Assembly: GCA_030019215.1 (NCBI GenBank)
Contig: JASEEZ010000019.1
Coordinates: 1 to 37,925 of the forward strand
Length of the DNA stretch: 37,925 nucleotides
Direction of reading: 5' to 3'
From: Actinomycetota bacterium
GTDB taxonomy: Bacteria > Actinomycetota > Aquicultoria > Subteraquimicrobiales > UBA9087
Shown here one piece after another: positions 1,141 to 37,559 of this stretch; within the stretch, counting starts at the first letter, position 1, and every line of letters begins with the position of its first letter. The notes beneath the pieces were generated by a model. That model saw only the letters and a list, made by a program, of their open reading frames with translations, was not told the origin of the DNA and did not search any database. Both the position numbers and the translations under genes were made by a program.

Positions 1141-1693
1141 TTTTATATTTGCGCTTTATGTCGGTCATATAATCTATCATATCTTTAAGTAGGTATCCGA
1201 CCCAAAGCTGCATCTCAAGAATCGTCTTGCCCCACCGTTTACTGAATTCTTTCTTAAATTCCTCGATACCAGTTAAATCCTCAATCTTTTTACCAGAAAC
1301 ATTTCCGAGAAAGTCATATGGTAACTGGCGTATCAGGAATTTTGGCTCATTTTCAGTAAGTTTATAGTATTGCGCATATCTATTTCTAATTTGCTCTTCC
1401 AATTTTGTTAAATTTAAAAGCTGAGCTGGTAAATCTAATTTTTTCTCATATACATATTTATGGAAAGCGTCTAGAAGTCTTTCTGTAAATTCTTTATTTT
1501 CAGTAAACACCCTTTGACATACATAAGTCATAAGAAACATAAAGAGATAAAACAACTCTCGATTAAATGTCTCTATATCTTTTTCTATATTAAACTTTTT
1601 TCTAAATCCATTAATCTCGTTAGGTGCACACCATTGCAATATAACTTCAGCAAGTTCTTTGCCTATTTCTTCAGCAGTGATTTTTTGTCCCAT
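1130..1693 (-). CDS. Hypothetical helical protein paired with a nuclease-like gene
   Basis: A 187-residue protein I do not recognise. It reads as almost entirely alpha-helical and charged, with an aromatic-rich helix near residues 46-60 (ELFYLFMFLMTYVCQRV) that is amphipathic rather than a clear membrane span. There are no metal-binding or nucleotide-binding motifs. The start ATG (1691-1693) has a good site, GGAAGGA, 5-6 bases upstream. Its TGA overlaps the TTG start of the following nuclease-like gene, so the two are probably translated together. AT-rich codon use sets both apart from the ribosomal cluster. The 208-bp spacer to truA holds a 7-bp inverted repeat (TCCGCCA / TGGCGGA, about 1780-1800) but no promoter I would defend. 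A defence or toxin role would be guesswork. Confidence 0.55.
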   Translation of the reverse strand: MGQKITAEEIGKELAEVILQWCAPNEINGFRKKFNIEKDIETFNRELFYLFMFLMTYVCQRVFTENKEFTERLLDAFHKYVYEKKLDLPAQLLNLTKLEEQIRNRYAQYYKLTENEPKFLIRQLPYDFLGNVSGKKIEDLTGIEEFKKEFSKRWGKTILEMQLWVGYLLKDMIDYMTDIKRKYKIGI

Positions 1694-9297: not shown

Positions 9298-9947
9298 CCC
9301 CTAATACCCTCGAGTGCCCCTTGAATATGCTCAAAAACATCCGCCGCAGATTTTTCTCCCTGAACGTTCCTTAATAGCCCTCTCCTCTCATAAAAATCGA
9401 TGAGCGGCGCGGTCTGCTCTTTATAAACCTCCAACCTTCTCCTCACAGTCTCCTCGGTATCATCCACCCGCTGGTAAAGATCACCACCGCATACTTCACA
9501 AACCTCCCCTTTTTTTGAGGGATCAAAGAGGAGATGAAATATTCTTCCACACCTCTCACAGATTCGTCGACCGGTAAGTCGGCGAATGATTTCCTCGTCT
9601 TCAACCTCTATGTTCAGAACCACATTCAGACTCCTGCCCATCCCCTTCAAAGACTTCTCGAGGGACTCGGCCTGGGCTACAGTTCTGGGGAATCCGTCCA
9701 GAATGAATCCCCGTTCGCAATCTTTCTCCTGCAGGCATTCTTCCACAACACCGATTATTATCTCATCCGGAACCAGTTCGCCCCGGTCCATATACCCCTT
9801 GGCCTTCAACCCCAAACCCGTCCCGTCGGTCACAGCCTGGCGAAGGATATCACCCGTCGAGATGTGAGGAATTCCGTATCTTCCCGAGATCATAGCAGCT
9901 TGAGTTCCCTTGCCGGAACCCGGTGCTCCCAAAAGCATGATGTTCAC
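9294..9947 (-). CDS. adk: Adenylate kinase, zinc-LID type
   Basis: Adk balances AMP, ADP and ATP. The 217-residue protein has the P-loop GAPGSGKGTQ at residues 7-16, the AMP-binding region (STGDILR, GFPRTVAQAE) and a long LID with two CxxC pairs, ICERCGR and VCEVCGG, which bind structural zinc in Gram-positive and thermophile enzymes. The start is GTG (9945-9947) with GAGGGGG 8 bases upstream. It lies 48 bases after secY, the common secY-adk-map order. Confidence 0.97.
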   Translation of the reverse strand: MNIMLLGAPGSGKGTQAAMISGRYGIPHISTGDILRQAVTDGTGLGLKAKGYMDRGELVPDEIIIGVVEECLQEKDCERGFILDGFPRTVAQAESLEKSLKGMGRSLNVVLNIEVEDEEIIRRLTGRRICERCGRIFHLLFDPSKKGEVCEVCGGDLYQRVDDTEETVRRRLEVYKEQTAPLIDFYERRGLLRNVQGEKSAADVFEHIQGALEGIRG

Positions 9948-34639: not shown

Positions 34640-34798
34640 CGCTGACGAAAAAGATAAAGACCTCCGTAGACAACAGAGGTCTGATAAGCTCGAAAAAATA
34701 ACTCCCAACCTCGGTAGGCGATTTTGAATCATTAAGCCCTTTCCAATATCTTCGCTGGTCGGGCACCTACTGTCTACGGCCTTAAACTATCTCCGATA
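34640..34798 (-). promoter_or_regulatory. L10 leader (ribosomal protein autoregulatory RNA)
   Basis: The 5' untranslated RNA of rplJL carries the hallmarks of the Gram-positive L10 leader. On the minus strand GGCCGTAGACAGTAGGTGCC lies at the 5' side, ACCGAGGT in the middle, and TTGTCTACGGAGGTC at the 3' side. CCGTAGACA (34771-34779) pairs perfectly with TGTCTACGG (34664-34672). That long-range pairing excludes the terminator hairpin at 34659-34681, so binding of L10 to the leader can switch between read-through and termination. Confidence 0.85.
34645..34681 (-). terminator. Attenuator hairpin in the L10 leader
   Basis: Minus strand: GACCTC, an 11-base loop, GAGGTC, then TTTATCTTTTT. The stem occupies 34659-34681 and the T-rich tail follows directly. 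It overlaps the 3' half of the long-range leader helix, the classical arrangement of a terminator and its competing structure upstream of rplJ. Confidence 0.75.
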
Positions 34799-36668: not shown

Positions 36669-36887
36669 TCACCCCCCAAAAAATTTAACTAAGCCCAACC
36701 TGAGTACCTGTGCAAAAAAGAAATCCAAACCACCGATGAACAAAGCAAAAAAAATTACCACTATCAATACGACGATGGTCGAGGCAACGATCTCCTGCTT
36801 GGAGGGCCAAGTGACTTTCTTGAGTTCCCTCCTCACCTCCCGCAGGTACTGGCTCAAACGGGTCAACAAACTTTTCTTCTCAACCAT
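36669..36887 (-). CDS. secE: Preprotein translocase subunit SecE
   Basis: A 72-residue, single-span SecE: amphipathic EVRRELKKVTWPSKQEIVAST followed by the membrane helix IVVLIVVIFFALFIGGLDFFF. The conserved KKVTWPSKQE clamps SecY. The ATG is at 36885-36887, with GAGGGTGG directly upstream. The open frame continues far upstream through the tRNA-tail repeats, but that part is not protein-coding. The secE-nusG order is universal. Confidence 0.96.
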   Translation of the reverse strand: MVEKKSLLTRLSQYLREVRRELKKVTWPSKQEIVASTIVVLIVVIFFALFIGGLDFFFAQVLRLGLVKFFGG

Positions 36888-36932
36888 CCACCCTCGTCCT
36901 TCGCCACAAAACAGATAAAGGGATTTTTCCTC

Positions 36933-36951
36933 GGGACGTATAGAACGTCCC
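36933..36951. repeat. Hairpin upstream of secE
   Basis: GGGACGT (36933-36939) and ACGTCCC (36945-36951) form a perfect 7-bp stem with a 5-base loop in the secE leader. There is no T-run, so it is not a typical terminator. It lies between the last tRNA-like tail and the secE ribosome binding site. Confidence 0.45.
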
Positions 36952-37010
36952 CTCGGAGTGGAACCCCCGAGGAGAGCCCATCCAGTACTTTCTGATAGCA
37001 CACAAAGAAG

Positions 37011-37195
37011 CAGGCCTGGAGGGATTCGAACCCCCAACCGCTTCGCTTCCAGGGGCTCTGCCCCTAGGACGCCCCCGATGAAATCGGGGGCTGTACCCCA
37101 AAAGCCTGGGGGAAATCCTTCCCCCAGCCCCCCCATGGGGTTGGGGCCCCAATCTTTTCCATCCGCCCAGCGCCTTCTGGTAACACACAAAGAAG
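37011..37195. repeat. tRNA-tail repeat, copy distal to tRNA-Trp
   Basis: A 185-bp unit. Its first 29 plus-strand bases (37011-37039) are identical to the 3' end of tRNA-Trp (T arm, 3' acceptor strand, discriminator). The rest is a chain of palindromes: AGGGGC/GCCCCT (37051-37065), GCCCCCGAT/ATCGGGGGC (37071-37091), CTGGGGGAA/TTCCCCCAG (37106-37127), CCCCATGGGG (37131-37140) and TTGGGGCCCCAA (37141-37152), followed by a 34-base link. It differs from the neighbouring unit (37196-37378) by only two missing bases in G/C runs. No protein is encoded. Confidence 0.85.
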
Positions 37196-37378
37196 CAGGC
37201 CTGGAGGGATTCGAACCCCCAACCGCTTCGCTTCCAGGGGCTCTGCCCCTAGGACGCCCCCGATGAAATCGGGGCTGTACCCCAAAAGCCTGGGGGAAAT
37301 CCTTCCCCCAGCCCCCCATGGGGTTGGGGCCCCAATCTTTTCCATCCGCCCAGCGCCTTCTGGTAACACACAAAGAAG
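37196..37378. repeat. tRNA-tail repeat, copy next to tRNA-Trp
   Basis: A 183-bp tandem copy of the unit at 37011-37195, with the same 29-base tRNA-Trp 3' end and the same series of palindromes. It ends exactly where the intact tRNA-Trp gene begins. The link sequence (CTTCTTTGTGTG... on the minus strand) is shared by both units and, in diverged form, by the single-copy sequence after the last tail (36982-37010). This shows that each unit spans from one tRNA 3' end to the next. Confidence 0.85.
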
Positions 37379-37453
37379 CAGGCCTGGAGGGATTCGAACC
37401 CCCAACCCCCGGTTTTGGAGACCGGTGCTCTAGCCAGTTAGAGCTACAGGCCT
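37379..37453 (-). tRNA. tRNA-Trp (anticodon CCA)
   Basis: A complete 75-base tRNA: acceptor AGGCCTG / CAGGCCT, D stem GCTC/GAGC, anticodon stem CCGGT/ACCGG with loop CTCCAAA (anticodon CCA, plus-strand 37416-37418), T arm GGGGG-TTCGAAT-CCCTC and discriminator G. The CCA tail is not encoded. It lies between rpmG and secE, a position where tRNA-Trp is common. The upstream leader holds a second AGGCCTG (in the minus-strand leader) and a small inverted repeat CTGCC-AATA-GGCAG (37460-37473). Confidence 0.96.
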
Positions 37454-37559
37454 GTCTGCCAATAGGCAGGCCTATCAGTCGCTCACAGTCTTCTTCAAAA
37501 TTATTTTTAAACCAGCCATTCCCAAATCTCAAAGCTTAAGACCTGCAACAATAGTATAT

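Follow-up and report, generated by a model that had tools for sequence, protein, structure and literature searches.

Tandem units behind an actinomycetotal tRNA-Trp gene as probable members of a dispersed, RtT-type repeat at tRNA and tmRNA genes

The window (the whole stretch of DNA that was analysed, 37,925 nucleotides of contig JASEEZ010000019.1, assembly GCA_030019215.1, from an Actinomycetota bacterium) carries on its minus strand a gene for tRNA-Trp followed by two tandem units, which lie, as a sequence-only reading of this DNA had stated, in the interval between trnW and secE. The features of this array, in the direction of the tRNA gene, are the following.

37378..37453, minus strand: tRNA-Trp with a CCA anticodon, the host gene (ARAGORN; Rfam RF00005)
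37379-37407, minus strand: 3' part of tRNA-Trp, the segment that is repeated
37196..37378, minus strand: unit 1, 183 bp, consisting of spacer, degenerate inverted T-arm segment, hairpin core, H5 and tail
37320..37337, minus strand: inverted T-arm segment of unit 1, GATTGGGGCCCCAACCCC, a weak match to the tRNA-Trp T arm
37232..37319, minus strand: core of unit 1 (G-run, H1, GGGGTACAG, H2, CGTCCTA, H3), a match to covariance model R1
37223..37235, minus strand: H5 mini-hairpin of unit 1, GGAAGCGAAGCGG, linking core and tail
37196..37224, minus strand: tail 1, an exact 29-base copy of the tRNA-Trp T arm and 3' acceptor strand
37011..37195, minus strand: unit 2, 185 bp, with two 1-bp indels relative to unit 1
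37137..37154, minus strand: inverted T-arm segment of unit 2
37047..37135, minus strand: core of unit 2
37038..37050, minus strand: H5 mini-hairpin of unit 2
37011..37039, minus strand: tail 2, an exact 29-base copy
36982..37010, minus strand: diverged copy of the start of the unit's spacer, 83% identity, past tail 2

The 29-base copy, GGTTGGGGGTTCGAATCCCTCCAGGCCTG, spans the tRNA from the variable loop and T stem to the discriminator and has three exact occurrences (37379-37407 in the tRNA itself, 37196-37224 and 37011-37039), a triple for which chance is excluded. The two units differ solely by the two 1-bp indels, both in homopolymers, and to this extent the description given by the sequence-only reading was accurate. 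It had also let the copied segment end with the tRNA, but the exact direct repeat measures 41 bases, 12 of them beyond the tRNA, and continues as a diverged copy to about 36982, so that the repeated target is longer than first described. The proposal of two insertions at the same tRNA is not supported, since direct repeats of 41 bases allow recombination or slippage at this site and two separate insertions are not needed; at the proK locus of E. coli, discussed below, the number of units varies. The copy number of two is as assembled and is uncertain in a draft genome in which a sister array behind tRNA-Gly is broken by an N gap. The reading frame of secE is open backwards across both units and the tRNA (287 aa, window positions 36669-37532, minus strand), and gene callers may therefore report a false long SecE or spurious proteins within the units. 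A ribosomal protein L10 leader (RF00557) lies at window positions 34644-34797 on the minus strand and is ordinary for the operon.

Each unit contains the succession of palindromes that had been noticed before, namely H1 CTGGGGGAAGGATTTCCCCCAG, H2 CCCCGATTTCATCGGGGG, H3 AGGGGCAGAGCCCCT, the sequence GGGGCCCC and the small H5 hairpin GCGAAGC, and the array folds far better than its dinucleotide shuffles (z = -6.0). The general order of the core is a G-run, H1, a G-run followed by T(N)ACAG, H2, CGTCC(T)A, H3 formed from a G-run and a C-run, GGAA and the small H5. Pairing of the outer H2 arms averages 3.2, compared with 0.64 for shuffled H2 (maximum of 200 shuffles 1.15), and these arms frequently carry CGAG..CGAG, which would allow tandem G.A pairs. 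A tendency to equal length (4,4,4; 5,5,5; 6,6,6) is seen for the G-run that precedes TACAG and for the G-run and the C-run of H3, where the scripted count of the H3 G-run is one too low if the motif absorbed a G. When some of the units, and those of E. coli described below, are folded as single sequences, the T-arm copies close a loop of several hairpins.

The 1.63-Mb draft genome to which the window belongs (G000) was searched with the unit, a second subfamily and covariance models at E<=1e-6. It contains 11 full-length units behind nine tRNA genes [Trp (2), Lys-TTT (2), Val-TAC, Pro-TGG, Gly-TCC, Arg-TCT, Ile, Arg-ACG and Val-GAC], and none elsewhere at this threshold; behind Gly-TCC one unit is complete and at least one further unit is cut by the N gap. 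A search of the genome for the core had been suggested by the sequence-only reading, and it finds the core always behind a tRNA whose own 3' end has been copied. The tails match the 3' end of the preceding tRNA at 21-22 of 22 positions, from the T-loop GGTTC on. Many of the units open with an inverted T arm of their own tRNA (17/17 bases for Val-TAC, 17/18 for Lys, 18/20 for Pro); the inverted copy is weakly similar at Trp and absent in the subfamily behind Ile, Arg-ACG and Val-GAC. A duplication unique to the Trp site, which we had also considered, is ruled out by the units elsewhere in this genome and in other genomes. In the same genome, a gene for a Y1 (RAYT-like) transposase is found directly 3' of a unit-holding tRNA-Ser cluster (G000:C33:23598-23927; in L024 from 3065).

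We sought relatives with covariance models R1-R3, which overlook divergent units such as one behind tRNA-Glu of G004, and the sample analysed comprises 80 units, drawn from 20 actinomycetotal and patescibacterial genomes. Within the bacterium's own class, 9 of 36 genomes have units; the figures are 9 of 31 for a second class of Actinomycetota and 2 of 287 for the sampled Patescibacteria. The same order is represented by Candidatus Subteraquimicrobium carltonvillense (Actinomycetota, Ca. Aquicultoria), and a genome of Candidatus Uhrbacteria provides patescibacterial units behind tRNA-Gln. The units are about 150-230 bp long, contain no gene and always have the same orientation behind genes with a T arm. 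Most begin with an inverted T-arm copy, which can pair with the direct copy and so close the core with its four to five hairpins. An intact tRNA or tmRNA lies within 300 nt upstream in 66/80 units, most of the others being located at contig starts, gaps or decayed genes, and only one (L072) is clearly away from any tRNA. The refuting checks set by the sequence-only reading, a core confined to the Trp site or found without a tRNA 3' end, therefore speak for it. Compared with 113 tRNA and tmRNA 3' ends, the tails of 50 of these 66 units match their own neighbour better than any other gene, where fewer than one would be expected by chance; the 16 whose own tail is not uniquely best have decayed tails or are two possible hybrids. 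There are 32 types of host gene, and these include tmRNA (in G088, G119, G158 and G329), from which it follows that the target is the T arm and not the tRNA as such.

One of the two candidate hybrids is L035 (G003:C117, around 1470-1600, minus strand). It lies downstream of a tRNA-Gly, with which its left inverted T arm agrees, and has the tail of tRNA-His; it reflects either recombination of two units with loss of tRNA genes or a chimeric assembly. The second possible hybrid is L094 (G337:C34), where, in a tandem that follows tRNA-Ala, the tail of the second unit is the 3' end of another tRNA (..TTCGAATCCACTCTCTCCGCC). Repeats of other kinds were seen near the tRNA genes as well. A separate MITE-like repeat of ~100 bp with inverted ends ctagtgccgttacaac ... 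gttgtaacggtactag is present twice in one tRNA cluster (L021, 2842-2940 and 3785-3880), and spacer repeats of the type actcccgactaacagactcttgact, found upstream of several tRNAs in L022, L024, L031, L038 and L058, precede many tRNA genes in several of the surveyed genomes.

Comparison of related genomes reveals sites with and without a unit. In a genome of the same genus (G001), tRNA-Gly-TCC and tRNA-Arg-TCT have none, and the flank that follows this tRNA-Gly matches the flank that follows the Gly tail in G000. The Ile, Lys and Val-TAC sites are empty in at least one of the genomes G002-G004, in which the Trp, Arg-ACG and Val-GAC sites are occupied by related or different unit types. In 34/47 comparisons a core is closer to the cores behind other tRNAs of its own genome than to cores behind the same tRNA elsewhere, and in one genome (G021) the three cores found at Pro, Arg-TCT and Arg-TCG are identical. 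The direct repeat has one fixed border, at the T loop, and one variable border downstream, which mostly coincides with the discriminator or CCA and extends to +6 at Arg-ACG of G002, to +11 at Trp of G003 and to +12 at Trp of the window, where the repeat is exact to this point and then diverged. The single orphan (L072, also L175; G003:C9, about 9690-9920) is of the Trp type and is flanked by rplK and rplA, no tRNA being nearby. It is circularly permuted, with the T arm first, and corresponds to one whole unit opened at the junction of core and tail. The rplK-rplA site of G002 and G004 has short, differing junctions, and in G002 the last bases of a unit are retained in the manner of a scar. Together, the orphan and these junctions suggest, from a single case, movement or loss of entire units in the form [tail-spacer-core].

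The closest known system is the 178-bp repeat of the E. coli tyrT locus (RtT RNA, RF00391), reportedly described in 1978; its anatomy is shared by the units, and the earlier statement that no named family of this form is known is not supported. In E. coli MG1655, 3.1 copies of the 178-bp repeat lie behind tyrV and one unit lies between tyrT and tyrV (annotated RttR/RtT). The Tyr unit has the tail AATCCTTCCCCCACCACCA plus 6 nt and the inverted T arm GGGGAAGGATGAGAAGCTTCGA, and the unit at proK has the tRNA-Pro tail AATCCTCTATCACCGACCA plus at least 10 nt and an inverted arm of tRNA-Pro, the inverted copies matching their own T arm at 19/22 bases (Tyr) and 15/17 bases (proK). Like the units of the window type, RtT repeats stand in tandem behind a tRNA, end in a tail from its 3' end and contain its T arm in inverted form. 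A core of several hairpins closed by the T-arm copies is shared with most of these units, and a CGAG..CGAG hairpin and a GGAGCGAAGCGA hairpin with many of them. However, RtT does not have the G-run/TACAG/CGTCC signature, its tail begins on the 3' side of the T loop, and it has been seen at two host tRNAs only, the Tyr and Pro loci in the Enterobacteriaceae examined, compared with 32 gene types for the surveyed units. The RF00391 model gives no match at E<=5-10 in units of G000, G009, G017, G496, G329, G088, G119 and G337 (gathering threshold 45 bits; E. coli control 133-137 bits). In core sequence the resemblance appears marginal, barely above shuffles, as 0, 8 and 1 of 100 dinucleotide shuffles reach the observed mean for tyrT, tyrV and proK. 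The likeness is thus one of anatomy, and we describe the units as working like RtT repeats and do not file them as members of that family.

The proK array of E. coli is variable. In seven strains inspected, the number of complete units is none, one or two, and a one-unit proK query is matched over most of its length, at one place, in about half of 5,426 complete genomes; copy number varied and no new host tRNA was observed. Several strains have at this locus (L182-L187) a truncated unit with a REP-like end. Of the E. coli RtT matches in phage and plasmid collections, the four that were inspected are chromosomal tyrT or proK loci, and core patterns and blastn gave no relevant match to the surveyed units in viruses, phages and plasmids. 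The literature mentions in passing a 122-bp VNTR annotated as 'rtT RNA' in Salmonella (PMC2658671) and a tandem GA motif in RtT RNA (PMC7657543). In the open-access literature we found no account of repeats with own-tRNA tails at many tRNAs, and earlier descriptions elsewhere are possible.

We conclude, with a probability of about 0.62, that the units are a dispersed, non-coding repeat of the RtT type that has taken the T arm of tRNA and tmRNA genes as its insertion site and left the host intact, which follows from the presence of the stretch between the T loop and the 3' end, or slightly past it, on both sides of the insert. This reading takes in the observed anatomy, the specificity for the unit's own neighbour, the many hosts and the single orientation, together with the empty sites in relatives, the core similarity within genomes, the variable downstream border and the tandem copies. 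Counting against it are the single orphan, the 16/66 tails that are not uniquely best, the inverted T-arm copy that is poor at Trp and lacking in the Ile/Arg(ACG)/Val(GAC) subfamily, and the failure to find a mobilising gene: our surveys for reverse transcriptase and Y1 transposase yielded no partner gene or autonomous relative, and the Y1 family PF01797 is present in 28/36 genomes irrespective of units. Under the favoured reading, the near-universal T-loop sequence (GGTTCRAATCC) would be the place at which a copy enters a new tRNA gene, through pairing or strand invasion. Homology at the T loop would set one border, whereby the tail would become that of the new host, and the other end would be joined at a variable point downstream. 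Recombination or slippage between direct repeats of 25-41 bases would afterwards create and remove tandem units. The inverted arm may have been matched to its host through template switching in a quasi-palindrome formed with the tRNA, a step that we offer as conjecture.

As the route we prefer the copying or recombination of DNA, because most unit-bearing genomes lack a reverse transcriptase and because of the permuted orphan. In the RNA-mediated alternative, an RNA released at a tRNA 3' end would use its T-loop end to anneal to a tRNA gene that carries a nick, and would be inserted by target-primed reverse transcription. It would give one fixed and one variable border, as are found at the T loop and downstream of it, and several copies do start at or near the point of tRNA 3' processing. 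A class survey, however, did not find RVT_1 in the unit-bearing genomes G001-G004, G009, G017 and G021, and the orphan with its T arm first is not a copy of such an RNA. We regard this route as unlikely, while leaving it some weight.

A slightly poorer prospect is a vertically inherited structured RNA of tRNA 3' trailers, serving as a processed RNA or a processing aid, whose core similarity would stem from gene conversion and not from insertion. The pairing of the H2 arms far above shuffles and the co-varying lengths of the G-runs and C-runs are in agreement with it, as are the annotation of RtT RNA as an sRNA or cis-regulatory RNA and its adherence to two loci. Such inheritance is at odds with the sporadic occurrence of the units (9/36, 9/31 and 2/287 genomes), with host tRNAs that differ between related genomes and with empty sites within a genus, and we judge it rather unlikely.

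The T loops of tRNA and tmRNA genes are classical att sites, and the sequence-only reading had favoured tiny non-autonomous integrative elements, moved in this case by a tyrosine recombinase acting at these 3' ends, or else an amplifying repeat. The behaviour of an inserted, tandemly amplified element is borne out, and an orphan that equals one whole unit opened at the core/tail junction speaks for such elements. Yet one given att site cannot provide some 30 different genes with the 3' end that each of them requires, and cores are common to different genes within a genome. Since each insertion carries the tail of its new host, which a fixed attP cannot give, a classical integrase element is not supported, and we consider tyrosine recombination improbable. 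An assembly artefact, to which draft metagenome-type assemblies, N gaps inside arrays and the possibly chimeric unit L035 might point, is refuted as a general explanation, since 20 independent assemblies and complete genomes of E. coli agree in this anatomy.

The units also differ from other elements with which they might be grouped. Integrative elements and genomic islands at the 3' ends of tRNA and tmRNA genes are alike in target class, in the intact host and in the direct repeat of its 3' end, but the units are geneless, have many hosts per genome and bear a host-specific tail; of the marks of such elements, we find the flanking direct repeat and the empty site in relatives, and no integrase inside the unit. 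REP/BIME and MITE repeats are likewise short, non-coding, palindromic and dispersed, whereas the units face one way behind T-arm genes and carry sequence of the host gene. In casposon or CRISPR-type integration at tRNA ends, a tRNA-end target of ~25 nt is duplicated; the duplication is similar, but the target copies of the units vary in length.

In Rfam, no unit reaches membership at a gathering score. Clostridiales-2 RNA (RF02937) gives sub-threshold full-length alignments, the best at 28.5 bits against a gathering score of 58.6, and its best matches in the genomes G000, G002, G397 and G496 are units. Sub-threshold matches of this model rank at or near the top on units of G000:C9, C12, C33, C1 and C5 and of G021, G002, G397 and G496. 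This similarity may be a further lead. Matches of the Clostridiales-2 motif pattern in viral contigs were dismissed as chance, there being no tRNAs in them.

We therefore deal with a real and dispersed kind of repeat that is so far barely described and whose sole familiar example is RtT of E. coli. The tyrT repeats have hitherto been treated as the curiosity of one operon. A distant variant is contributed by the window, and the survey broadens the picture to different phyla, many host genes and tmRNA. It is tempting, although the odds are somewhat against it, to see RtT, the present units and perhaps Clostridiales-2 RNA as a single class of minimal mobile elements, so far unrecognised and spread across phyla, that dock at the universal T loop of tRNA and tmRNA genes and have both ends rebuilt from each new host gene. 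In such a class, the direct copy would spare the gene and the inverted copy would serve as a guide or as one arm of a closing stem. If the same design is at work at more than 30 types of tRNA and tmRNA gene in Actinomycetota, Patescibacteria and Enterobacteriaceae, it would represent a general T-arm-targeted repeat that multiplies harmlessly beside essential genes. It would provide a testable model of an element that finds new targets by copying its host. It would also account in part for the variation of tandem repeats and the breaks of assemblies at tRNA clusters, and indicate where a function of rtT RNA should be sought. For the gain and loss of units, the proK locus of E. coli is a ready-made system.
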